DNA of 64,000 nt, from assembly GCA_029881805.1 (NCBI GenBank), contig JAOULW010000008.1, forward strand, positions 1-64,000, written 5' to 3'. Source of the DNA: Candidatus Bathyarchaeota archaeon. Lineage in GTDB: Archaea > Thermoproteota > Bathyarchaeia > Bathyarchaeales > Bathycorpusculaceae. Positions 20,667 to 31,914 of this stretch are shown in pieces. How positions within the stretch are numbered: position 1 is the first letter of the stretch; every line of letters begins with the position of its first letter. The notes below the pieces were generated by a model. It ran no database searches. It was not told the DNA's origin and saw only the letters and a program-made list of their open reading frames with translations. The position numbers were made by a program, and so were the translations under genes.

Positions 20667-21668
20667 TCAGCGTCCTTCACCATCAGCCTTCATTCTACTC
20701 GTAGTTTTCCTCATGTAATATGTGTTTCCTTCATATTCAAGCTCTAGGAGTTTGCCTTCTTGCAACAGCTTGTGCATAATTTGCCAGTCCGTATTTGCTT
20801 TTTTTAGAAACTTTTCCACCGCTTCTTTACGCATGGGATGCACCGTTGTTATGCTCAGCAAATCCTCTTCGACCTTTCCTGTAAAAGCGAAGGCATCGCC
20901 CTCATAGCCTATCAAATATTCAACTCTGTCTACGCCAAGTTTTTCAGAGAACACTTGAAAGGCTCTGTTCACTGCCTCTTCTTTTGGCGTTCTGACCCAA
21001 TTCTCAGTTGGAGGTCTTGTCGGAACAGCAATATACGCCCTATTCAGCCTTTCCAGGCTTTCCAAAAAGTCTGCAATCTTCTGAAACTCGTTCCCGTAAT
21101 CCACGCTTTCTACAAGCATCGTTTCACTAATAATTGTTCCCTTGTACTCTTTTGCAAATGTGGCCATACCTTCCATGACAAGACCAAGTCTCAAATCTTT
21201 GCTAGGTCTGTTTACCCTTCTCCATATTCTGTCACTTACAGCATCCACTTTTAGAGACATCATGTCTGCTTTCCCCAGATCCTCTCTTACGTCTCTCCGC
21301 CAAACAAGCGAAGCATTAGTTAAAACAGCCACTCTTATTCCAATCTGCTTTAGAAGAGATATCTCGCTGCCAAGGTTAATGTCTAAAGTTGGTTCGCCAT
21401 CTGGAGCAAAAGTCAAATAGTCAATACTCTCGTTTCTCAGGCTTGCTCTTTGAATTTTCTTTTTCACTTCCGTCACGATTTTTTCTGGCTTGTGAAAAAT
21501 TCGCCTTTCACATGTCATGTTTGTAGTCTTTCCCACTTGACAATAAACGCATGAATATGAGCAGTTTTTGGCAGGGATATTGTTTATTCCCAGACTTCTT
21601 CCTAAACGTCTCGAAGGAACAGGACCAAAGACTAATGTTTCCATCCTTGGCAAGTCATTGACTTCCAC
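20667..21668 (-). CDS. Radical SAM protein, COG0731 type
   Basis: A 333-residue protein. NCSYSCVYCQVG near residues 32-43 is the CxxxCxxC site that binds the SAM-cleaving 4Fe-4S cluster. LTFAPDGEPTLD near 85 is the GGE-like motif. The start MxTLVFGPVPSRRLGRSLG is typical of archaeal COG0731 proteins, whose substrate is not settled. The GTG at 21668 overlaps the preceding gene by 14 bases; the ATG at 21644 is an alternative. Context suggests cofactor or cluster maturation. Confidence 0.85.
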   Translation of the reverse strand: MEVNDLPRMETLVFGPVPSRRLGRSLGINNIPAKNCSYSCVYCQVGKTTNMTCERRIFHKPEKIVTEVKKKIQRASLRNESIDYLTFAPDGEPTLDINLGSEISLLKQIGIRVAVLTNASLVWRRDVREDLGKADMMSLKVDAVSDRIWRRVNRPSKDLRLGLVMEGMATFAKEYKGTIISETMLVESVDYGNEFQKIADFLESLERLNRAYIAVPTRPPTENWVRTPKEEAVNRAFQVFSEKLGVDRVEYLIGYEGDAFAFTGKVEEDLLSITTVHPMRKEAVEKFLKKANTDWQIMHKLLQEGKLLELEYEGNTYYMRKTTSRMKADGEGR

Positions 21669-22530
21669 ATTTCAAAGCTGAAACGGTTCTTTTCCACATC
21701 TCGATTATTTTTTTCGCGATTCTGCTTTCAGATGCGTATTCAACAATAGGCTTTTCGTTAACCATGGCTTCCGTAGCTATCGGGTTGAAGGGTATTTTTC
21801 CAATGACTTCAACTCCATTCTCGCCGCAAAAGTCCACGATTCTCTTCGTATTTTCGTCGTTGATGTCATGCATGTTTATGCAAACAAAAGGTCGCACATT
21901 AAAATGCCCTAACAAACGCAACACTCGTTCAAGGTCGTGAATTCCCGACATTGTCGGTTCTGTAACGATTAAACCCGCGTCTACTCCGGTAACCGAAGCT
22001 ATTACTGGGCAACCTATTCCGGGCGAGCCATCAATTATGACGAGATCAGCGTGTTCTTTTTCAGCCAGCACTTTGGCGTTTTGTCTTACTAAGGTCACAA
22101 GTTTTCCCGAATTCGATTCGCCAGGATTCAACAATGCGTGAGCCATAAAACCATACTTTGTCTCTGAGATGTAAGCATGTCCGGAAACACGTTCAGTCAA
22201 TGTTATTGCACTTACTTGGCAGACAAGACTACAGACACCACAACCTTCGCACGAAATAGGATCAATTTGCAGGTTTTCTGTTATTGCATTGAAATTGCAT
22301 TTCTCTCGACATAAATCGCATTTTGTGCATTTTGTTTCGTTAATTGTTGCTAGTTTTGAACCTCTGAACTCTTGTGTTTTGACTATTTTTGGATGCAGAA
22401 GAATGTGCAGGTCAGGAGCGTCTACATCGCAGTCGGCCACAACTGCATTGCGGGCTAAAACTGCAAAAGAGGCGGTTATCGTTGTTTTACCTGTGCCACC
22501 CTTTCCACTTAGAATGGTAAGTTGCTTCAT
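21655..22530 (-). CDS. MinD-type P-loop ATPase with inserted ferredoxin domain (second copy)
   Basis: About 291 residues from the ATG at 22530, which overlaps the previous gene's stop by 4 bases. The deviant Walker A, SGKGGTGKTT, is at residues 6-15. The inserted ferredoxin pair is CTKCDLCREKCN near 65 and CEGCGVCSLVCQ near 95. VIIDGSPGIGCP is the Walker B region. This COG1149 family is paired in tandem in many anaerobes, for example in the orange-protein operon of Desulfovibrio. The role is probably ATP-driven cluster or electron transfer. Confidence 0.88.
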   Translation of the reverse strand: MKQLTILSGKGGTGKTTITASFAVLARNAVVADCDVDAPDLHILLHPKIVKTQEFRGSKLATINETKCTKCDLCREKCNFNAITENLQIDPISCEGCGVCSLVCQVSAITLTERVSGHAYISETKYGFMAHALLNPGESNSGKLVTLVRQNAKVLAEKEHADLVIIDGSPGIGCPVIASVTGVDAGLIVTEPTMSGIHDLERVLRLLGHFNVRPFVCINMHDINDENTKRIVDFCGENGVEVIGKIPFNPIATEAMVNEKPIVEYASESRIAKKIIEMWKRTVSALKCGSQ

Positions 22531-23363
22531 TTGTTGACAAACTTCCTCACAGTGGTAAAAAGAGCCTGAAGCTTTATTTTCCATTCAGGCATTTCTTGGC
22601 TGAATGGTATGCCTCTGGAATAAAGCTCTGCTATTCTTCTCTCATACGGAATTTCAAGTAATATTGGGATGCCTTTTTCTTCGCAGTATTCATAAACTCT
22701 ATTGTCGCCAACACCTGCACGATTGATTACGACGCCGAAGGGAATTCTCATGCTTTCTAAGACTTGAATCATTATCTTCAAATCATGAAGGCCGAAAGGC
22801 GTTGGTTCTGTTACAAGAATGCAAAAGTCGCTATCTTTGACGGTTTGTATGACAGGGCATGAAGTGCCTGGCGGCGAATCAAGAATCACGTTCTTGCCTT
22901 TTTCAATACGCCTTTTGACTTCTTTTATGACTGGAACAGCCATTGGTTCGCCCACTTCAAGCTCTCCATATACCAACTCCAGACCGCCAGCTGAACCAAG
23001 CTTCAAAGTTCCAATCTTGTGCTGATCTTCACTGATTGCCTCTTTTGGACAGACAAGAGCACATCCACCGCAACTGTGGCACAGGTCTGGAAAAACCAGA
23101 ACTTTGTCTGAGCCTATAAAAAGGGCGTTATATTGGCAGAAACCGGCGCATTCTCCGCAGCGGTCACATAATTTCTCATTCACGATTGGGACAGAAACAG
23201 TGACCGCTTGGGTTTGGCTTATCTTAGGGTTTAGGAAAAGGTGAGCGTTTGACTCCTCAACGTCACAGTCAAGAAGTTGAACATTCCCTATTGAAAGCGC
23301 CATGTTTACAGCTACTGATGTTTTTCCCGTTCCTCCTTTTCCGCTCGCTACCGAAACTATCAT
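22527..23363 (-). CDS. MinD-type P-loop ATPase with inserted ferredoxin domain (first copy)
   Basis: A 278-residue paralog of the next gene. VASGKGGTGKTS is at residues 5-16, and the ferredoxin insert has CDRCGECAGFCQ near 65 and CHSCGGCALVCP near 93. VILDSPPGTSCP is the Walker B region. The two genes overlap by 4 bases and probably make a heterodimer. Both ATP sites and all eight cluster Cys are present in each copy, so neither looks decayed. Confidence 0.88.
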   Translation of the reverse strand: MIVSVASGKGGTGKTSVAVNMALSIGNVQLLDCDVEESNAHLFLNPKISQTQAVTVSVPIVNEKLCDRCGECAGFCQYNALFIGSDKVLVFPDLCHSCGGCALVCPKEAISEDQHKIGTLKLGSAGGLELVYGELEVGEPMAVPVIKEVKRRIEKGKNVILDSPPGTSCPVIQTVKDSDFCILVTEPTPFGLHDLKIMIQVLESMRIPFGVVINRAGVGDNRVYEYCEEKGIPILLEIPYERRIAELYSRGIPFSQEMPEWKIKLQALFTTVRKFVNK

Positions 23364-23402: not shown

Positions 23403-24086
23403 CTATGTTCTTTTTTGTGATTCTACTATGCCTTTATGATAATCACTGTAGAGTGCTATCACTGGATTGTGACCTAGTAGACGATCTTTGACGATAAGAG
23501 TCGTGACTGGAGCTTCAGGGTTTATAGTGAAGAGCATGTCGTGTCCAACGCAAAGACCAACAATCACATTGATATCGGTCCCTACATCATTTAGAAGCTG
23601 TGCTTGAAGAACTGGGTTACAACCTGCCTCGTATTTTGAAGCTTTGCCAATCTTGTATTCTTTGGCAACGCCAAGTTTTGTCTTGTCAATCCCTCCACAT
23701 TTGCACAAAACTGAAGCAACGGCAAAACCAGACTTTCCTAGCACCTTTACAATTCTCGCCGCCTCATCGCGCATCCCAGCACAAAAGGCTAATCCAATCT
23801 TTCGTGCATGAATTAGCTTGCCAAACTCGACTAGTTCTTTGATTCTGGGACGGACAGCCATGCGCACACCTCTAACCAATTCGTATGCTTCTTTTTCTGT
23901 CACAGTAGCTGGAACGTAGATTTTTCTCACGTTCTCTTGTCCATACCTCTCTGTCACAGCTTTGATAGTAATTTCGCTTATTTTCATTGGGCAGAACTTG
24001 GGGAGAACGTTTTTGCTGACTTCGTCTCCGTGCATGCGTTGGCAAAAGGTATTCGAACACTTGGCGCATTGAGGTAAAGTCGCCAT
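23403..24086 (-). CDS. DUF1847 family metal-binding protein
   Basis: About 227 residues from the ATG at 24086, chosen for AGGAG 9-10 bases upstream; the longer frame starts at 24131. Cys-rich motifs are QCAKCSNTFCQRMHG at the N-terminus, AFCAGMRDEA near 118, CKCGGID near 142, AGCNPVLQA near 170 and GLCVGHDMLF near 190. This is the DUF1847 pattern, a conserved anaerobe protein thought to bind a metal or cluster. It sits directly after the NifU-like scaffold gene. Confidence 0.85.
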   Translation of the reverse strand: MATLPQCAKCSNTFCQRMHGDEVSKNVLPKFCPMKISEITIKAVTERYGQENVRKIYVPATVTEKEAYELVRGVRMAVRPRIKELVEFGKLIHARKIGLAFCAGMRDEAARIVKVLGKSGFAVASVLCKCGGIDKTKLGVAKEYKIGKASKYEAGCNPVLQAQLLNDVGTDINVIVGLCVGHDMLFTINPEAPVTTLIVKDRLLGHNPVIALYSDYHKGIVESQKRT

Positions 24087-24090
24087 TTTC

Positions 24091-24546
24091 TCATTCTCCT
24101 TTACATGACAATGAAGGTTTACTTCCTTCATAATTCACTATCGCTTTTTTCAATGTTCTTATCACAAGCTCAATGCAATCTATTTTTGGATCAGGCAAAC
24201 CTCCAAGTTTATTGAACACATTCTCTTCAGTAATCTCCTTAGCAGCTTCAATGGTCTTACCTTTCAATAGGCTCGTCACTGCAGAAGCCGCAGTAGCAAC
24301 ACCTGGACAACCGAGACATTGGAATTTCGCGTCTTTTATGACATGATTCGTGTCTAGAGCTAAGTATAGTCTGACTACATCTCCGCAGGGACCAGTGTGA
24401 GTCTCAACTATATCGGGCTTCTCTAGCACGCCCATGTTGACTTTGTTTAAGTATAACTCGATAGCCTTGTCAGAATATCCCGATTCTTTCAACAATTCGA
24501 GTTCTTCTTTGGTTGCTTTCTTTTGCATTTCCTCACGTCCGTTCAA
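24091..24546 (-). CDS. NifU/IscU-like Fe-S scaffold protein
   Basis: A 151-residue protein; start TTG 24546 or ATG 24528. An N-terminal helical extension (about 35 residues, KEELELLKESGYSDKAIELY) precedes the NifU-N fold. The ligand set is GPCGD near 54, FQCLGCP near 75 and KIDCIEL near 122. The CxxC in the second motif and the extension differ from standard IscU. It probably assembles Fe-S clusters for the proteins of this island. Confidence 0.8.
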   Translation of the reverse strand: MNGREEMQKKATKEELELLKESGYSDKAIELYLNKVNMGVLEKPDIVETHTGPCGDVVRLYLALDTNHVIKDAKFQCLGCPGVATAASAVTSLLKGKTIEAAKEITEENVFNKLGGLPDPKIDCIELVIRTLKKAIVNYEGSKPSLSCKGE

Positions 24547-24569: not shown

Positions 24570-24944
24570 CTAGTGGTGGTCCGCGTGATGACAGCCTTCT
24601 GTTAGTTCCTGAAGAATATCTTTATTATATGCAGCCACATTGCCTGCCACTGTGTTGACGTTAGCCTTCAAAACAGCAACACCAGCGTCCTGAAAAGCGC
24701 TTAAACCCCTAGGGCCCATTCCGTAAACTATTATCGCGTTTGGCTTCAGTTTCACTATGTGATCATGGCTTTGCCCCATGCCGCCAGCATGTTCACCGAC
24801 ATTTGGCACTGTTTTCACGTTTGAAACATTTCCACTCTCGTCCAGTTCAACAACAGCGAAGTAAGGCGCCCTTCCAAAATGTTCAGCTACTTGCGCACCC
24901 AAACCACTTTCGTCTACTACTGGAATCACAACTCTAAATCCCAC
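24570..24944 (-). CDS. NifX/ORP-like cofactor-family protein
   Basis: A 124-residue protein from a GTG start at 24944 that shares a base with the preceding TAG stop; GGAGGTGACG is the ribosome site. Motifs: VAEHFGRAPYFAVVEL and IVYGMGPRGLSAFQDAGV. A His-rich tail (CHHADHH) ends the protein and may bind metal. It is coupled with a second NifX-like gene. Confidence 0.85.
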   Translation of the reverse strand: MGFRVVIPVVDESGLGAQVAEHFGRAPYFAVVELDESGNVSNVKTVPNVGEHAGGMGQSHDHIVKLKPNAIIVYGMGPRGLSAFQDAGVAVLKANVNTVAGNVAAYNKDILQELTEGCHHADHH

Positions 24945-25429
24945 TACGTCACCTCCTTCTTTCTTAACTCCTGAAATCTTGAGTTCTTGTGTTTCATGTC
25001 TTCAGGCTCTTTATTGTTCATGTTTTCTAAGTGCCCCATTGTCCTCGTCCCCCTACTCCGTCCTCTACCCATACCAAAATGTCCACCAACAGTTGGTGCG
25101 CCGGTCTCCACTAGTTCGCCTCTCTTGTATTTCTCAACAACTTCTTGCACTGTTCCAAAAGCACCTGTCACGATTTTTATTCCCGCCGCTGACAACGCTT
25201 GAAACGCGTTTGGACCGACATTTCCAGTTATGAGCACTTTAGCACCTTTGCTCGCTATGGTTTGAGCTGCTTGAATTCCAGCACCGCCCGTTGCGCCAGA
25301 AGCCATGTTTTGAATGACCTCAAATTGCATGTTTTCAGAGTCTACGATCACAAAGTATGGGCATCTGCCAAACCTTGGGTCTATCGGGGAGTCCAAGCTG
25401 TTTGATGCTGCTGATACACATATTTTCAT
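24944..25429 (-). CDS. NifX/ORP-like cofactor-family protein, Gly/Arg tail
   Basis: A 161-residue protein. Residues 1-115 carry the family fold (IDPRFGRCPYFVIVD, ITGNVGPNAFQALSAAGI), followed by GHFGMGRGRSRGTR and a charged tail. The MGRGRG-type tail is common in anaerobe ORP-like proteins. It begins 49 bases after the CdhA stop, so it probably belongs to the same transcript. Confidence 0.85.
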   Translation of the reverse strand: MKICVSAASNSLDSPIDPRFGRCPYFVIVDSENMQFEVIQNMASGATGGAGIQAAQTIASKGAKVLITGNVGPNAFQALSAAGIKIVTGAFGTVQEVVEKYKRGELVETGAPTVGGHFGMGRGRSRGTRTMGHLENMNNKEPEDMKHKNSRFQELRKKEVT

Positions 25430-25478: not shown

Positions 25479-27827
25479 CTACTCCTTCTTTTTTCTAATT
25501 AACCTCGGTAATAGAGTAGGGTCTGGTATTGTGCACTCTTTCCACTTCTTCTCTTCCAGGATTTTCAGTATCTCGTCCTTCATGGTCACGGGAATATCGG
25601 TGGCTGTGCGAACAAAAAGGTGGATGTCGTCTGGCATTATACCGTAGAGACGCTTGTGCAAGTCGACATAATGCGTCAGCTTTATTGCCCGACCCTTTGA
25701 AGTGTCATTTGGTCGCATACAAAGTTTAGCAATCATAACTATGGCTTCTTCCTTCGTCTCAGCCGCAATAAACAGATGCTCAGGCGCGGGACCAGCATAA
25801 ACGCGGTCACCAGTACGAGCATCATAAACATACCAGTCCTCCTCTCGATCTTTTCTTCCCAAAAGCATGCGTCTATACTTGGACCCGTGGGGTCCAACGA
25901 TCACTGGCACTCCCAATCTCCAGAAACCGCTCGCAATGGAAGCAGCCTTCTGCGACATCGCCCCCCATGCGACCCCGACAGCACCAACCCGATTTAATAC
26001 GTAGTCAGCGATCTCCTCGTAATTGCCCCGCAAGCTTCGCTTAGCAAAAATACTGGCTATCTTGATCGCGGCACCAGCTATGTGAGGATTAGAAACACAT
26101 GAACCCACGTTCAAGACGCCACCAGCTTCGAAGGCACCTGAATATTTCTCGTAGAGGGTCTTTCCCTCCTCATTCTTTACCATGGCTATGGACATGGCTG
26201 CGCATCCTGATGCGACAACGATAAATCTACGCCTCGCGAACTCTTCAGCGATCTTTACAACTTCCTTTCCCCCATGGGGGTAATTGGCGCATCCTACAAT
26301 AGCTACAACTCCCGGAATCTCGCCGAGGACTATCGGTCCGCCGACATTCCTTATTTCAACATCTTGAATTGCTCCTCGTCCGACTCTCATCTTAAACTTC
26401 TCTTTCCAAAGTTGTTCCTGTCCAGCTGTGACAAAGAAGCTATGGAGAGGGAAGTCGTTGGGACAAGCACTGTCGCATCTAGCGCAACCAATGCATTCAC
26501 CTAGGAGTTCAGCGAGGGGGTTGAGGTCGCCATTAGCAGCAGCTTTCATAGCGTCGGGTATGGGTTGATCGTTTGGGCATGCCCTTCTACACTCGTTGCA
26601 TTCCGTGCAGTTTTTAGCTGCCTCGATGATTTCTTCTTTTTTTGGAATAACCGTGAATTTATTCCGCTTTGAGGCAACCTTCATTACGGTTTCAACAGCC
26701 ACTTCTCCTACTTTATCCGCGTCCAGAATTAGTGCTCCTGGAACCTTTCCTTCCACCAAGTCTGATACAGTCTCATTTGATGGACTTTCGGTTCTGTTTT
26801 CCAGCCCCAAGCAGTTCTTGGGGCTAGAAGCGATAACTGGCACATTCACTTTTTCAGCTTCAGCCAATGTATCTGCCCGAATGCACTGCTCATCCACCAC
26901 AATTAAGTCGGCCAATCCGCTCCTTAGGTAACGCAATTGCCAAGATATAGGACCAATTATCTTGGCCATGGAGCTGTACCTTGTGAGGTCGTGGGCGGTG
27001 CAGCATATGCCTACTACTTCGATCTTTCCTACAAGTCCCTTGTCCGTTAAGTAGTCGATTATGCCCACAGAAGATGGCACGTTGTGACCAATGACTAAAA
27101 TGGTTGGCTTGGAGACATCGGCTATGCCAAAGCCCAGATCCGTCAATGGAGCCTCCGGATCGGCCTTTGGAAAACCAAACACGGAAATCTGTGCCAGATC
27201 TGCGACTTCCATGCCTACTTGATCCACCATTCCGGCGTGAAGCACTTTTGACTCAAAGTCAAGGTTACTGCCTTCTTGTCCTGTGTGGGTTGCTGACAAG
27301 AGATGAGTAACCTGTTTTTCCAAGTAATCCAAAACGTCTTCTAGATCCCTGAGGGTTTTCGGTCGGACGCCACAGACTAAGCGGGTGACCGGAGCCTCAA
27401 CTTCAATGTTCAAACCTCCGACATCGATGGAGTGCCTCGGACCAAACTTCTCAATCAAATGCTCGACTAAGTGCCTAGCGTGACCTATGTGCGTCGCGGC
27501 TCCTATGCAGCAAGCAAGAAGGACTATTCGCGATTGCTGGGCAGACATGTTCAGTCCACATGCTCCACGCTTGTCGCCCGTTAAGTCACATTTACCGAAG
27601 GTGCAAAGACAACAAACATCACAAAAAGGCAGGTAAAACGGCTTGTAACGTTGCAGAAGTTTCAAGTCCCACTCTCTTAGGTCTGTAATGGATGGAAAAG
27701 GCGTGGGACCAACTGGTTCTGCCCAAGTCTCTTCAAAGATTCTACCAATGGACACTTCAAGGTTCTTTATGGCTAGGGTGTCCGATTTTAGTTCATCTAT
27801 TTTTACATGCGCGGCTCTTTTGGACAA
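25479..27827 (-). CDS. cdhA: CO dehydrogenase/acetyl-CoA synthase alpha subunit (CdhA type)
   Basis: A 782-residue protein, full length for CdhA. It oxidises CO or reduces CO2 at a Ni-Fe-S C-cluster. All expected ligands are visible: His248, Cys275 or 276, Cys315, Cys513, Cys542 and Cys577. Residues 69-90 hold the N-terminal cluster Cys. Two extra ferredoxin motifs at 407-417 and 445-455 are specific to the archaeal form. The TTG start has AAGGTGAG upstream and lies 6 bases after the hydrogenase stop. No CdhB, C, D or E gene is nearby, so it may not work in the normal acetyl-CoA complex. Confidence 0.92.
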   Translation of the reverse strand: MSKRAAHVKIDELKSDTLAIKNLEVSIGRIFEETWAEPVGPTPFPSITDLREWDLKLLQRYKPFYLPFCDVCCLCTFGKCDLTGDKRGACGLNMSAQQSRIVLLACCIGAATHIGHARHLVEHLIEKFGPRHSIDVGGLNIEVEAPVTRLVCGVRPKTLRDLEDVLDYLEKQVTHLLSATHTGQEGSNLDFESKVLHAGMVDQVGMEVADLAQISVFGFPKADPEAPLTDLGFGIADVSKPTILVIGHNVPSSVGIIDYLTDKGLVGKIEVVGICCTAHDLTRYSSMAKIIGPISWQLRYLRSGLADLIVVDEQCIRADTLAEAEKVNVPVIASSPKNCLGLENRTESPSNETVSDLVEGKVPGALILDADKVGEVAVETVMKVASKRNKFTVIPKKEEIIEAAKNCTECNECRRACPNDQPIPDAMKAAANGDLNPLAELLGECIGCARCDSACPNDFPLHSFFVTAGQEQLWKEKFKMRVGRGAIQDVEIRNVGGPIVLGEIPGVVAIVGCANYPHGGKEVVKIAEEFARRRFIVVASGCAAMSIAMVKNEEGKTLYEKYSGAFEAGGVLNVGSCVSNPHIAGAAIKIASIFAKRSLRGNYEEIADYVLNRVGAVGVAWGAMSQKAASIASGFWRLGVPVIVGPHGSKYRRMLLGRKDREEDWYVYDARTGDRVYAGPAPEHLFIAAETKEEAIVMIAKLCMRPNDTSKGRAIKLTHYVDLHKRLYGIMPDDIHLFVRTATDIPVTMKDEILKILEEKKWKECTIPDPTLLPRLIRKKKE

Positions 27828-27833
27828 CTGGAC

Positions 27834-29294
27834 TCACCTTTCAAGAGTTTTCATCAACTTCTTATTATGATCGTATATGGAGACTTGGAGGGGCATCTGA
27901 CCTACTGCAAAGTGAGTTGCACATGCAAGGCATGGGTCGTAAGCTCTGAAAGCCATCTCTACCCTATTCAAAAGTCCTTCACTCACATTTTCACCATGTA
28001 TAAGGGCTTTGGCTGCGTCTCTTATGGAGATGCATATAGCTGGACTGTTGTTTGTTGTAGCTACTATCAAGTTAACGCGCTTCATCAAGGCTTCTTCATC
28101 CAGAATGTAGTGATGAATCAAGGTGCCTCTAGCAGCTTCAACGATTCCAACTCCTTCCCCAGGAGTCCTAGGTTTGTTTCGAATATCCCTGCTCGTTATT
28201 TCCTTGTCCCTGCTCAGTTCTAAACATCTTTCCGCCACGTACAACAATTCTATCAGTCGAGCCCAGTGAAAGGCGAGGGTTGAATGGACGGGTTTTCCAC
28301 CCAAGGTTTCATACATTCTCTTGTACTCTTGCTGAGCTAGGGGTGTCGCCATTCCCTCCGAAGCATTCAGTCTTCCGAGGGGTCCAACACGATAAATGCC
28401 GCTGTCTGATCCGCCGACAAAGCCTTTCCAACCAACTTTCTTTAGGTAGGGAAACTTGACATAAGTCCAAGGTTCAACACGCTCCTCAATTACATCCAAA
28501 TATTCACGTGGAGCAAACTTCACAAACTCTCTGCCTTCCGGATCAACCACTCGCACTTTGCCATCGTAAAAGCCAACTTTGTTGTTTTCATCAACCATAC
28601 CCATGTAATATGTTTTCAAGGTATAGGCATCGCTCAGAACCATGTCCACGTAATTCTTATTCTTCAACACCACATCGTCAAAAAGTCTCAGGCTGAATTT
28701 CGCGAACTCAACGCTGGACTCTGCCATCTTTTCGATCTCTTGCCTCTCTTCCTCGCTCAACGGTTTAGAAATGCCCCCAGGCAATCCGCATACCGGATGG
28801 GTCGCCTTTCCACCAAGAATGGCTGTGATTTTTTGTCCATAGGCTCGATGCTTGATCACTTCTTGGGCGACGTCGAGACCAACCTTCTTAATCACTCCAA
28901 AAATGTTTCTTTCACCAGCTGGAGCGTCGGGACCTACAACAAAGTCTGGTGCACCTAAGAAGTAGAAGTGAAGTGTGTGATCATAAATCATGTAGCCACA
29001 GTAAATGAGTTCCCTAAGCTTTTTAGCAGCTGAGGGAGGATCCACATTGAACGCAGCATCCAAAGCCTTTGTCGATGCGAAATGATGAGCGACAGGGCAA
29101 ACGCCACAAATCCTCGAAGTTATGATCGGCATATCTTCAGCTTTTCTTCCCTCACAAAATCTTTCAAAGCCTCTAAGCTCGGGAACCTGGAAATAGGCGT
29201 TTTCTACGTTTCCCTCTTCGTTCAAGAAGATTTCTATCTTGCCGTGACCTTCGAGACGGGTGATTGGATTTATGGTTATCGTCTTTGTGCTCAT
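27834..29294 (-). CDS. [NiFe]-hydrogenase large subunit, group 3 type (MvhA-like)
   Basis: A 486-residue protein. RICGVCP (Cys63, Cys66) and DPCLACATH (Cys455, Cys458) supply the four Ni-Fe ligands. It begins with the typical TITINPITRLEGHGKIEIFLN. A 25-residue tail after ATH at 461 should be removed by a maturation protease. Group 3 enzymes such as MvhA react with H2 in the cytoplasm and pass electrons through a small subunit. No small subunit (MvhG) or MvhD gene is found next to it. Instead it is coupled to CdhA downstream and a Mrp/NBP35 ATPase upstream. Confidence 0.92.
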   Translation of the reverse strand: MSTKTITINPITRLEGHGKIEIFLNEEGNVENAYFQVPELRGFERFCEGRKAEDMPIITSRICGVCPVAHHFASTKALDAAFNVDPPSAAKKLRELIYCGYMIYDHTLHFYFLGAPDFVVGPDAPAGERNIFGVIKKVGLDVAQEVIKHRAYGQKITAILGGKATHPVCGLPGGISKPLSEEERQEIEKMAESSVEFAKFSLRLFDDVVLKNKNYVDMVLSDAYTLKTYYMGMVDENNKVGFYDGKVRVVDPEGREFVKFAPREYLDVIEERVEPWTYVKFPYLKKVGWKGFVGGSDSGIYRVGPLGRLNASEGMATPLAQQEYKRMYETLGGKPVHSTLAFHWARLIELLYVAERCLELSRDKEITSRDIRNKPRTPGEGVGIVEAARGTLIHHYILDEEALMKRVNLIVATTNNSPAICISIRDAAKALIHGENVSEGLLNRVEMAFRAYDPCLACATHFAVGQMPLQVSIYDHNKKLMKTLER

Positions 29295-29305: not shown

Positions 29306-30226
29306 TCATTCAGGTACACTCGGCTTAGGCGGGCTTTCTAATCGCTCTTTTCGCTCCAAGAAACGTTCGATTTTCTTGACGATTTCCGTAAATGCCTTTG
29401 TTGCAGAAGAATCGGCATGTTCAGTTATGAAAGGCACTCCGTTATCAGAGTCACGACAAATCTCAGGGTCTATTGGAATTCGTCCCAAGAAAGGAACAGA
29501 CAAATCATCTGCTATCTTTTTTCCTCCTCCCACCTTGAAAATGTCGATCTCCGCTCCACATTTTGGGCAGACGAAGCCGCTCATGTTTTCGATAACGCCG
29601 ATGACGGGAATGCCCAGTTTCCTAGAGAAGGTCACAGCCTTCTTAACCACTATCTGGGAAACCTCTGAGGCGATGGTGACTATTACCACCCCATCCATCT
29701 CCGGAATAAGCTGCATGATGCTCAGAGGCTCATCTCCCGTTCCAGGGGGAAGGTCTATAAAGAGAAATTCGAGTTCTCCCCAGACGATATCCGATAAGAA
29801 CTGGCTGATCGCCCTCATCTTCAGTGGGCCGCGCCAAATGACTGGTGCTTCTTCGCTTGGAAGCAGGAAGTCCATGGACACAACCTTGATTCCCATAGGA
29901 CCTAATGCGGGAAAGATGCCTGCTGGACTGGCTTGAAGCCTCTGCCCGTGTAAGCCAATCATCTTCGGCACGCAGGGACCAGTTATGTCGGCGTCAAGGA
30001 TGCCAACGCGGTTAACATATCCATGCATTGCAAAAGCCATTGCTAGGTTCACTGTTACAGTACTTTTGCCTACGCCGCCTTTACCGCTTATAACCGCTAT
30101 CTTGCGCTTGATCCTACTCATTTTGAGCTTAAGTCTCTGTTCTTCTTCATACTTCTCTTTTCTTGGGTCAGTGCATCCATTAGCCTCTGAACAAGAATCA
30201 CATTTCCCGTCGCATTCTCCATTCAT
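29306..30226 (-). CDS. Mrp/NBP35 Fe-S cluster carrier ATPase
   Basis: A 306-residue protein. The N-terminal Cys5, Cys9, Cys12 and Cys18 resemble the NBP35-type cluster site. The deviant Walker A, SGKGGVGKST, is near residue 47, and the C-terminal FVCPKCG supplies the bridging-cluster CxxC. These ATPases load 4Fe-4S clusters onto target apoproteins. As the first gene of the operon, 11 bases before the hydrogenase, it probably matures the hydrogenase and CODH clusters. Confidence 0.92.
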   Translation of the reverse strand: MNGECDGKCDSCSEANGCTDPRKEKYEEEQRLKLKMSRIKRKIAVISGKGGVGKSTVTVNLAMAFAMHGYVNRVGILDADITGPCVPKMIGLHGQRLQASPAGIFPALGPMGIKVVSMDFLLPSEEAPVIWRGPLKMRAISQFLSDIVWGELEFLFIDLPPGTGDEPLSIMQLIPEMDGVVIVTIASEVSQIVVKKAVTFSRKLGIPVIGVIENMSGFVCPKCGAEIDIFKVGGGKKIADDLSVPFLGRIPIDPEICRDSDNGVPFITEHADSSATKAFTEIVKKIERFLERKERLESPPKPSVPE

Positions 30227-30279
30227 GCCTATCTTCTCTCATCGTGATTGTCGTGTTATCTTCATCGTAATGTGGAGGA

Positions 30280-30300
30280 ATAGTTTAATACATAAACTAT
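30280..30300. promoter_or_regulatory. Operator candidate 1: ATAGTTTA-N5-TAAACTAT
   Basis: A perfect palindrome with 8-base arms and a 5-base spacer in the divergent gap between the Mrp-hydrogenase-CODH operon and the Lrp-type regulator. It shares GTTTA-N5-TAAAC with a second palindrome about 31 bases away, three helical turns, as expected for cooperative binding. Confidence 0.65.
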
Positions 30301-30312
30301 ATTAATACTTTA

Positions 30313-30329
30313 TGTTTAGAAAATAAACA
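30313..30329. promoter_or_regulatory. Operator candidate 2: TGTTTA-N5-TAAACA
   Basis: A perfect palindrome with 6-base arms and a 5-base spacer that ends 1 base before the regulator's GTG start. Binding here would block the regulator's own transcription. It has the same core and spacing as candidate 1. Confidence 0.65.
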
Positions 30330-30330
30330 G

Positions 30331-30909
30331 GTGCAGCATTTGGACGAAGTTGACCGGAATATAATTTCTCAGCTTCAGCTAGATGGCCGAACAACATTAG
30401 AAGAATTGGCCAAGACTGCGGGATTCACGAGCATGGGAATCAAGAAAAGATTACAGAAACTTCTGAGTAATGACTCTCTCAAAGTGTCAGCCATGCTCAA
30501 CCCGTTCTCCTTTAAACTCTCTCCAGCCATTGTATTGCTAGAAATGGAAAGCGCGGGAGCAATGCAAAACCTTCTGGATCGATTCAAAGACTGCCCGAGA
30601 GTTATCCAAATCTTCAAGACGATAGGAGGCTACAACCTAATAGGCCTAGTTATCGCTGAAGACCAAGACACTCTCGAAAGCATATCTGTTGAGAAATGCT
30701 CTTTACGAAGTAGTACTGGGATACGTAGATCAGAATTTTATCCTATCGGTGACATTTATTTCTCCCCCTTCCTTTCGGTGAGAGAACATCTTGCTCACAA
30801 GGAAAAAACAGTCGCACCCTGTAATGTTGACTGCAGACCATGTGCGCGATACAGAGACAAAAAATGCGTCGGCTGTCCAGCAACAATCCACTATAGAGGA
30901 ACACTCTAG
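30331..30909 (+). CDS. Lrp/AsnC-type regulator with five-Cys C-terminal tail
   Basis: A 192-residue protein from GTG 30331. Residues 1-60 are an AsnC-type helix-turn-helix (DEVDRNIISQLQLDGRTTLEELAKTAG). Residues 65-140 are the ligand-binding RAM-like domain (SPAIVLLEMES, TIGGYNLIGLVIAED). Residues 164-182 form a CX3CX2CX7CX2C cluster, which could hold an Fe-S cluster or zinc. It is divergent from the hydrogenase-CODH operon and flanked by two palindromes. A redox- or metal-responsive regulator of that operon is the simplest reading. Confidence 0.85.
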   Translation: MQHLDEVDRNIISQLQLDGRTTLEELAKTAGFTSMGIKKRLQKLLSNDSLKVSAMLNPFSFKLSPAIVLLEMESAGAMQNLLDRFKDCPRVIQIFKTIGGYNLIGLVIAEDQDTLESISVEKCSLRSSTGIRRSEFYPIGDIYFSPFLSVREHLAHKEKTVAPCNVDCRPCARYRDKKCVGCPATIHYRGTL

Positions 30910-30988
30910 CTGGTGAATTTTCACGATTAAAAAAGACCATAGAACGCCTAAACAAATTGTTCAACTTAAAGAAGTCGATGGCGCAGAG

Positions 30989-31914
30989 ATGATAACCCTA
31001 ATGGACAACTCTGCTGATTTTCTGTCCACAATCGAATGGGAAGAAGCCCAGCAAGTTCGAAAGTGGGTGAAAGAAAGCAAAGGAGAGGAATGGATAAAAG
31101 AGCATTTCCTTTTACCCGTGGCTGAACATGGTTTTTCAATGCTGGTCCGCCTCTTTTGCAACGGTGCTTCTCACAGCGTACTATTTGACACGGGCGGAAG
31201 CCCCGAAGGAGTGGTAGCTAATGCTGATCGAATGGGGTTTGATCTATCTGAAATCGAGTCTATTGTTCTCTCTCATTGTCATTATGACCATTTCGGTGGA
31301 CTATTGACAGCCCTGAAAGTTGTCAATAAGCGAAATTTGCCTATCATCGTGCGTGAAGATATGTTCAAGACCAGAGGTGTAGCTGACGTCAACGGAACGA
31401 TTAGAAAACACCCGGATTTTCCTACAGATTATCAGGTGAAGCCAGCCAGATACGTTAGAACGAAGCAGCCATACCTCACAGCCGATAGAACACTTCTTGT
31501 CACAGGCGAGATTCCCCGTGAAACTGACTTTGAAAAAGGCGTTCCACAAGACAGAGTCTTGGCCAATGGCAACCCCATACTTGGATCTGGGATGATAGAG
31601 CAATTGTAATTAACTTTAAGCAGAAAGGTCTAGTAGTTATATCTGGCTGTGCTCATGCAGGCATAATCAACACGACATGTTATGCACAGCAAATCACTGG
31701 AACTGACAATGTTTTTGCAATAATGGGTGGATTCCATCTGGCTGGAAAAGAATACGAGCCAAGGATAAGCCAAACAGTCGAAAAACTGAAACGCATAAAC
31801 CCCAATCTGCTAATGCCATCACACTGCACGGGCTGGAAGGGAATTTACGCTATAGCCGAAGCTATGCCTCACGCTTTCGTCTGGAATAGCGTTGGAAACC
31901 TCTACGAGTTTTGA
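30989..31914 (+). pseudogene. Metallo-beta-lactamase-fold hydrolase split by a frameshift
   Basis: The first frame (30989-31609, 206 residues) has the HCHYDHFGG motif near residue 95. Near 31575 the frame breaks. The family sequence continues in another phase (TWIWDDRAIVINFKQKGLVVISGCAHAGIINT) up to the stop at 31914, with GGFHL and PSHCTGW. One missing base in the run of four C at 31572-31575 would restore a protein of about 308 residues. That points to a sequencing or assembly slip, or a very recent mutation. The family includes phosphate synthases and flavoprotein-type hydrolases of unknown substrate. Confidence 0.75.

Follow-up and report, generated by a model that had tools for sequence, protein, structure and literature searches.

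The DNA between a Bathyarchaeia gene for an Lrp/AsnC-type regulator and the divergent operon headed by an Mrp/NBP35-type ATPase carries two matching palindromes, and comparison with related genomes identifies this pair as a conserved operator of the regulator's orthologues. We give a probability of roughly three in four to the reading in which the regulator itself operates the double site, repressing its own gene and controlling the operon at a shared TATA box in response to redox or Fe–S status. What comparison shows is the conservation of the operator, its autoregulatory placement, the set of target genes and the match of specificity between protein and half-site. The features are listed in Table 1.

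Table 1. Features of the operator, the regulator and the neighbouring genes (positions in the window, the whole 64 kb stretch of DNA analysed)
Feature	Position	Strand	Basis or remark
Left palindrome ATAGTTTA-ATACA-TAAACTAT	30280..30300	.	Centre 30290; read directly
Left palindrome core GTTTAN5TAAAC	30283-30297		
Right palindrome TGTTTA-GAAAA-TAAACA	30313..30329	.	Centre 30321; read directly
Right palindrome core	30314-30328		
TATA box TATTAATA, self-complementary, between the palindromes	30300..30307	.	95% conserved
Likely operon-promoter BRE, ATAAAG on the minus strand	30308..30313	-	CTTTAT or similar conserved beside TATA
Likely regulator-promoter BRE AAACTA, overlapping the left palindrome	30294..30299	+	AAACYA/AAACCT conserved; inferred
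GGTG Shine-Dalgarno element	30330..30333	+	6 nt before TTG 30340; contains GTG 30331
Lrp/AsnC-type regulator, 189 aa from TTG, C-terminal cysteine tail	30340..30909	+	Pfam HTH_AsnC-type, AlphaFold2, Foldseek
Recognition helix region FTSMGIKKRLQK, residues 29-40	30424..30459	+	Helix H31-43 in model; type covaries with half-site
Cys cluster C161-x3-C165-x2-C168-x7-C176-x2-C179	30820..30876	+	Invariant in 72 homologues
Metallo-beta-lactamase-fold gene behind the regulator	30965..31908	+	Pfam; two frames in tblastn
Mrp/NBP35-type Fe-S carrier ATPase, operon gene 1	29306..30226	-	Pfam ParA 4.6e-95; NCBIfam MrpORP best relative
F420-non-reducing [NiFe] hydrogenase large subunit, VhuA-like	27834..29294	-	NCBIfam VhuA 2e-128, below equivalog cut-off
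CdhA, CODH/ACS alpha subunit	25479..27827	-	TIGR00314, 1178 bits, above cut-off
Two NifX-like proteins (dinitrogenase FeMo-cofactor domain)	24570..25429	-	Pfam PF02579
NifU-like Fe-S scaffold	24091..24546	-	Pfam PF01592
DUF1847 protein	23403..24131	-	Pfam PF08901
Two MinD-type ATPases with ferredoxin inserts	21655..23363	-	Pfam CbiA and Fer4

Direct reading of the window confirms what the first-pass annotation had described, two palindromes with a common GTTTAN5TAAAC core and centres 31 bp apart. They are the only two occurrences of this core in the window, far above the 0.06 expected by chance, and none of 100 shuffled sequences contained two. The whole genome holds nine exact copies against one for a reversed control pattern, while a profile of the double site, run against the 2.2 Mb genome, returned one strong match, this pair (E-value 2e-14, the next being 0.115). 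The search for the core across the genome, by which a regulon was to have been defined, thus gave seven further single sites and no second double site; most of the seven lie within reading frames, and single sites were rejected as a regulon in this genome.

Regulator orthologues were detected at E < 1e-59 in 48 of 121 relatives. The double site (E < 1e-3) was present in 41 of these 48 genomes and absent from all 73 that lack the regulator (Fisher 2e-25), a comparison in which recovery of the 32 regulator-adjacent sites that had trained the profile is circular, the informative parts being the extra sites and the absence of the double site from other genomes. The same block, with the consensus AGTTTAATACATAAACCATATTAATACTTTATGTTTAnAAAATAAACAG, stands upstream of orthologues with at least ~57% identity; its palindromes are spaced by 31 bp in 32 regulator orthologues and by 32-33 bp in most others, and real upstream regions mostly have 0-2 mismatches of 20, where the best shuffled ones reach 4. 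Column identity is 91-98% in the arms, 95% in the TATA box and 46-47% in the flanks (over the 32 orthologous sites, 91-96% for the left arms, 46% for the left flank and 98% for the right arms). Loss of the palindromes upstream of orthologous operons had been named beforehand as grounds for abandoning the idea; the pair is kept there together with its spacing. Some arms have paired changes, e.g. GTTTG/CAAAC, which would be expected of an RNA hairpin as well. Still, hairpins in RNA, or inverted repeats arising by chance in AT-rich DNA, are scarcely credible as an explanation, given that conservation covers the spacing, the TATA core and the arms but not the flanks, that the palindromes are placed upstream of the expected starts or at them, and that shuffled sequence yields so low an expectation (only 0.06).

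Sites of the same layout were also seen upstream of orthologues from other classes of the phylum (L187 and L191), and no clear pair was found upstream of the most divergent orthologues (~48-57% identity). Two orthologues of the Bathyarchaeum tardum type (L057 and L060, 48-51%) have a diverged operator upstream, approximately GTTTAC..TTTAATAAACG..GTTTAGTAAAATAAC. A contig labelled as Asgard group archaeon (L040) encodes a regulator 77% identical, with the same operon and operator as in Bathyarchaeia, which may reflect a mislabelled bin or a transfer.

One palindrome had been described as abutting the regulator's own GTG. The right palindrome does adjoin GTG 30331, but this codon is not the start. 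At the position of TTG 30340 a start codon is found in 40 of 41 orthologues with at least 55% identity (TTG in 25, ATG in 14 and GTG in one), whereas the position of GTG 30331 is occupied by a start codon in only eight of 41 and by a TGA stop in one. GTG 30331 was rejected as the regulator start on account of this conservation. A Shine-Dalgarno-like tetramer precedes the same start in 21 of the 41.

The assignment of the protein to the Lrp type holds. The AsnC-type HTH scores above the cut-off (PF13404, 2.4e-9) and the AlphaFold2 model (pLDDT 89.5) has the Lrp fold; the RAM domain falls below the Pfam cut-off (19.4 vs 25 bits) and is recognized by its fold, with Foldseek matches to full Lrp proteins at TMt up to 0.86. 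Some 45 extra residues at the C-terminus extend beyond the Lrp fold, and a PDB sequence search gave matches to residue ~144 only and no relative of the Cys tail. Apart from the cluster in this tail, two cysteines lie within the RAM domain: C85, invariant across the 72 homologues, and C120, present in 71 of them. It is likely that the regulator senses redox or Fe–S/metal status via these conserved cysteines. Amino acids are the usual effectors of Lrp proteins, and the RAM fold is intact here; the tail could accordingly be a structural zinc site in a protein that senses an amino acid or another metabolite through its RAM domain and has no redox or Fe–S activity. We consider this doubtful, as two extra invariant cysteines are located inside the RAM domain itself and the targets have mostly Fe–S and thiol redox functions. 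A distant Lrp paralogue encoded by this genome (L213, G000:C25:31455-32000; 29% identity) shares the C-terminal Cys cluster and has neither a GTTTA nor a GTTAC operator upstream.

That the encoded Lrp-type regulator binds the palindromes is very probable; the strongest evidence for this in the sequences is that half-site and recognition helix vary in step. Among 56 homologues with a TSMG-type helix, GTTTAN5TAAAC (at most one mismatch) is present upstream in 50, neither motif in six and GTTACN5GTAAC in none; among 15 paralogues with an SHV-type helix, GTTACN5GTAAC is present in 10, GTTTA in one and neither in four (Fisher 1e-10, counted over related sequences, so that the p-value ignores relatedness). 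Archaeal genomes are rich in HTH proteins, any of which could in principle be the binder, yet confinement of the operator to genomes with this regulator and covariation of the half-site with the helix of the neighbour make a regulator other than the neighbour very improbable. Several SHV-type paralogues (L061-L063, L199-L204, L209 and L210) share this Cys tail and have a GTTACN5GTAAC site near a TATA-like stretch; the left partner site in these paralogues is weaker.

The space between the palindromes, on which the first-pass annotation was silent, is occupied by the TATA box TATTAATA with conserved AAAC..CTTT flanks, and its presence there makes the layout that of a shared promoter. Variants of the box (TTTAAATA and TATTTATA) are likewise TATA-like, and leftward-only promoters retain both the TATA box and the left palindrome. 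The BRE of the operon was assigned from the RRAAA consensus (PMC6640164). In Pyrococcus furiosus the last TATA base is 23 bp from the start (PMC6640164), a distance that would put one start near 30330 and the other near 30277, both just beyond the palindromes. In copies of the site that are unlinked from the regulator, mrp starts within ~30 nt of the site, often after a GGTGAAA-type Shine-Dalgarno sequence, so the leftward promoter should lie within the site, with TATTAATA as its TATA box by position. One TATA box thus probably serves both the regulator and the operon directions.

The operon had been described as a hydrogenase-CODH operon. Both genes are present here, but they are not the conserved target: among the loci read, VhuA and CdhA are found within the mrp operon only in this genome (G000) and in G006, and the hydrogenase-CODH pair was rejected as a conserved target for this reason. 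By comparison of gene content, the genes for hydrogenase and CODH were added locally, and the conserved target is the Mrp–NifX–NifU–MinD cluster-carrier operon, with a common core of mrp, nifX1, nifX2, often nifU, minD1 and minD2. The Mrp ATPase scores below the cut-off of the MrpORP NCBIfam model (342 vs 450 bits), and the P-loop and Di-Nase domains are in separate genes. The VhuA-like subunit (27834-29294) has a VhuU-like C-terminus, and no hydrogenase small subunit was seen among the annotated operon genes. On the other side, the metallo-beta-lactamase-fold gene follows the regulator in most relatives in the same order; here it is split across two frames near 31565, by a frameshift or an assembly error.

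The site remains before the regulator when the adjacent gene is not mrp (L020, L027, L028, L029, L031, L032, L034, L036 and L038). In genomes with an unlinked operon (G042, G024, G048, G055 and G062), the regulator, which in G024 is split or partial, and mrp each have their own double site; in such cases genes such as a histidine-phosphatase family gene intervene, or the mrp copy is far from the regulator. Two separate genomes (L107:6479-8253 and L095:4642-6435) share a conserved cassette, a histidine-phosphatase gene plus two further genes, between two copies of the double site. Other sites precede nifX-osmC-flavodoxin operons in G055, G062 and G017, operons of this kind that lack osmC in G065 and G048, a gene for a pyridine nucleotide-disulphide oxidoreductase (G048) and, in G071, a nifX-nifU operon that runs towards cdhA; in G058, G066 and G070 a nifX-flavodoxin-cdhA operon with a site is divergent from the regulator, and weaker sites precede a 1-Cys peroxiredoxin gene in G062, G017, G048, G064 and G069. 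In G055 an S-adenosylmethionine synthetase-like gene is preceded, at a distance of ~160 nt, by a perfect double site (L094:15305-15350). The target set suggests a role in Fe–S maintenance and peroxide/thiol stress rather than in hydrogen metabolism as such. A search of the present genome with one peroxiredoxin query sequence gave no match; since it also has one double site only, a single promoter may make up the whole regulon here.

In the mechanism that we propose, one regulator dimer would bind each palindrome, the two being three helical turns apart on the same face of the DNA and flanking the near-symmetric TATA box, which would be used rightward for the regulator and leftward for the Mrp operon. 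Cooperativity of the dimers on one face, the shared TATA box, repression as the sign and the redox or Fe–S signal are the parts that we infer. With both sites filled, the BRE would be covered on one side and the TATA-to-start region on the other, so that the bound pair would most likely repress both directions, combining negative autoregulation with control of the operon. When clusters are damaged or scarce, the regulator would leave the operator or rearrange on it, and its release would free the cluster-carrier and antioxidant genes. For archaeal Lrp proteins, sites spaced two or three turns have been described, as have autorepression by LrpA beside its TATA box and repression by LrpA from downstream of TATA (PMC2995911).

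The sign of regulation is the least certain step, as each palindrome holds a repressing and an activating position, one per direction. The same regulator on the same operator might activate the operon, a dimer on the right palindrome recruiting TBP while the left one represses, as with Ptr2 and BarR. The right palindrome is the better conserved of the two and is situated just upstream of the leftward BRE, and Ptr2, LysM and Ss-LrpB activate from a dimer site immediately upstream of the BRE, an upstream-bound dimer of Ptr2 or LysM activating by recruiting TBP (PMC2995911); furthermore, BarR is a precedent for a divergent dual regulator that represses one direction and activates the other (PMC10201364). 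On the other hand, the left palindrome falls between the TATA box and the operon start, an LrpA-like repressing position, and it is kept in the leftward-only promoters. We therefore regard activation as unlikely and repression of both directions as the better account.

The regulator is a member of the Lrp/AsnC family by its fold and by the rules of its operator. With the archaeal Lrp/AsnC proteins (FFRPs) FL11/PH1519, LrpA, Ptr2 and Ss-LrpB it shares the HTH plus RAM fold, a palindromic site of 13-15 bp with an AT centre, two- or three-turn spacing and autoregulation by the TATA box (PMC2995911); as for Lrp, the distance between its semi-palindromic sites is a whole number of helical turns (31 bp in 32 orthologues). 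It differs in having five invariant cysteines in the C-terminal tail and two in the RAM domain, a tightly conserved pair of sites flanking one TATA box in place of degenerate clusters, and Fe–S/redox genes as targets instead of amino-acid metabolism. BarR of Sulfolobales is likewise an Lrp-type protein, divergent from its target and with sites in the common intergenic region (PMC10201364), but has three TTG..CAA-type sites, beta-alanine as a ligand and an aminotransferase target. SurR of Thermococcales resembles the present case in its autoregulation, in the GTT..AAC type of its sites and in its redox control of hydrogenase and thiol genes (PMC12162507); it is, however, an ArsR-type wHTH protein with CxxC in the HTH and the motif GTTn3AAC. 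Membership in the SurR group was rejected, as the regulator here has an AsnC HTH without CxxC and the motif GTTTAn5TAAAC (gap 5, 5-bp arms), and no homology between the two was found.

The MrpORP/ORP cluster of Desulfovibrio similarly combines an Mrp/NBP35 ATPase, a dinitrogenase-cofactor domain and MinD ATPases in Fe–S delivery (PMC6345978); here the domains are separate proteins, and the operon adds hydrogenase and CODH subunits in this genome and G006. The bidirectional promoters of P. furiosus also have a near-symmetric TATA box with a BRE on either side, one box firing in both directions from starts separated by 49 bp (PMC6640164); theirs were read as mostly non-functional antisense promoters, while in the present case, with predicted starts, the genes on both sides are coding and an operator flanks the box. 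The open literature searched gave no account of this regulator, and neither its Cys tail nor the TATA-flanking pair was found described there. We see the odds as evenly balanced that the protein represents a new Lrp-type class in Bathyarchaeia and related archaea, defined by a Fe–S/redox-active Cys domain and by a TATA-flanking, two-dimer bidirectional switch controlling Fe–S carrier, CODH/hydrogenase and antioxidant genes.

By comparison alone, the largely uncultured Bathyarchaeia gain a transcription factor whose operator is defined and testable and whose regulon is predicted. Sites of Lrp proteins have been described as hard to predict (PMC2995911), and two helix types with two half-sites offer a ready recognition code for this family. 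The layout also offers a natural setting in which to test how bidirectional transcription from a single archaeal TATA box is regulated. If the cysteines carry an Fe–S cluster, the regulator would be an Lrp-family counterpart of IscR- and SurR-type sensing in anaerobic archaea of the acetogenic type.
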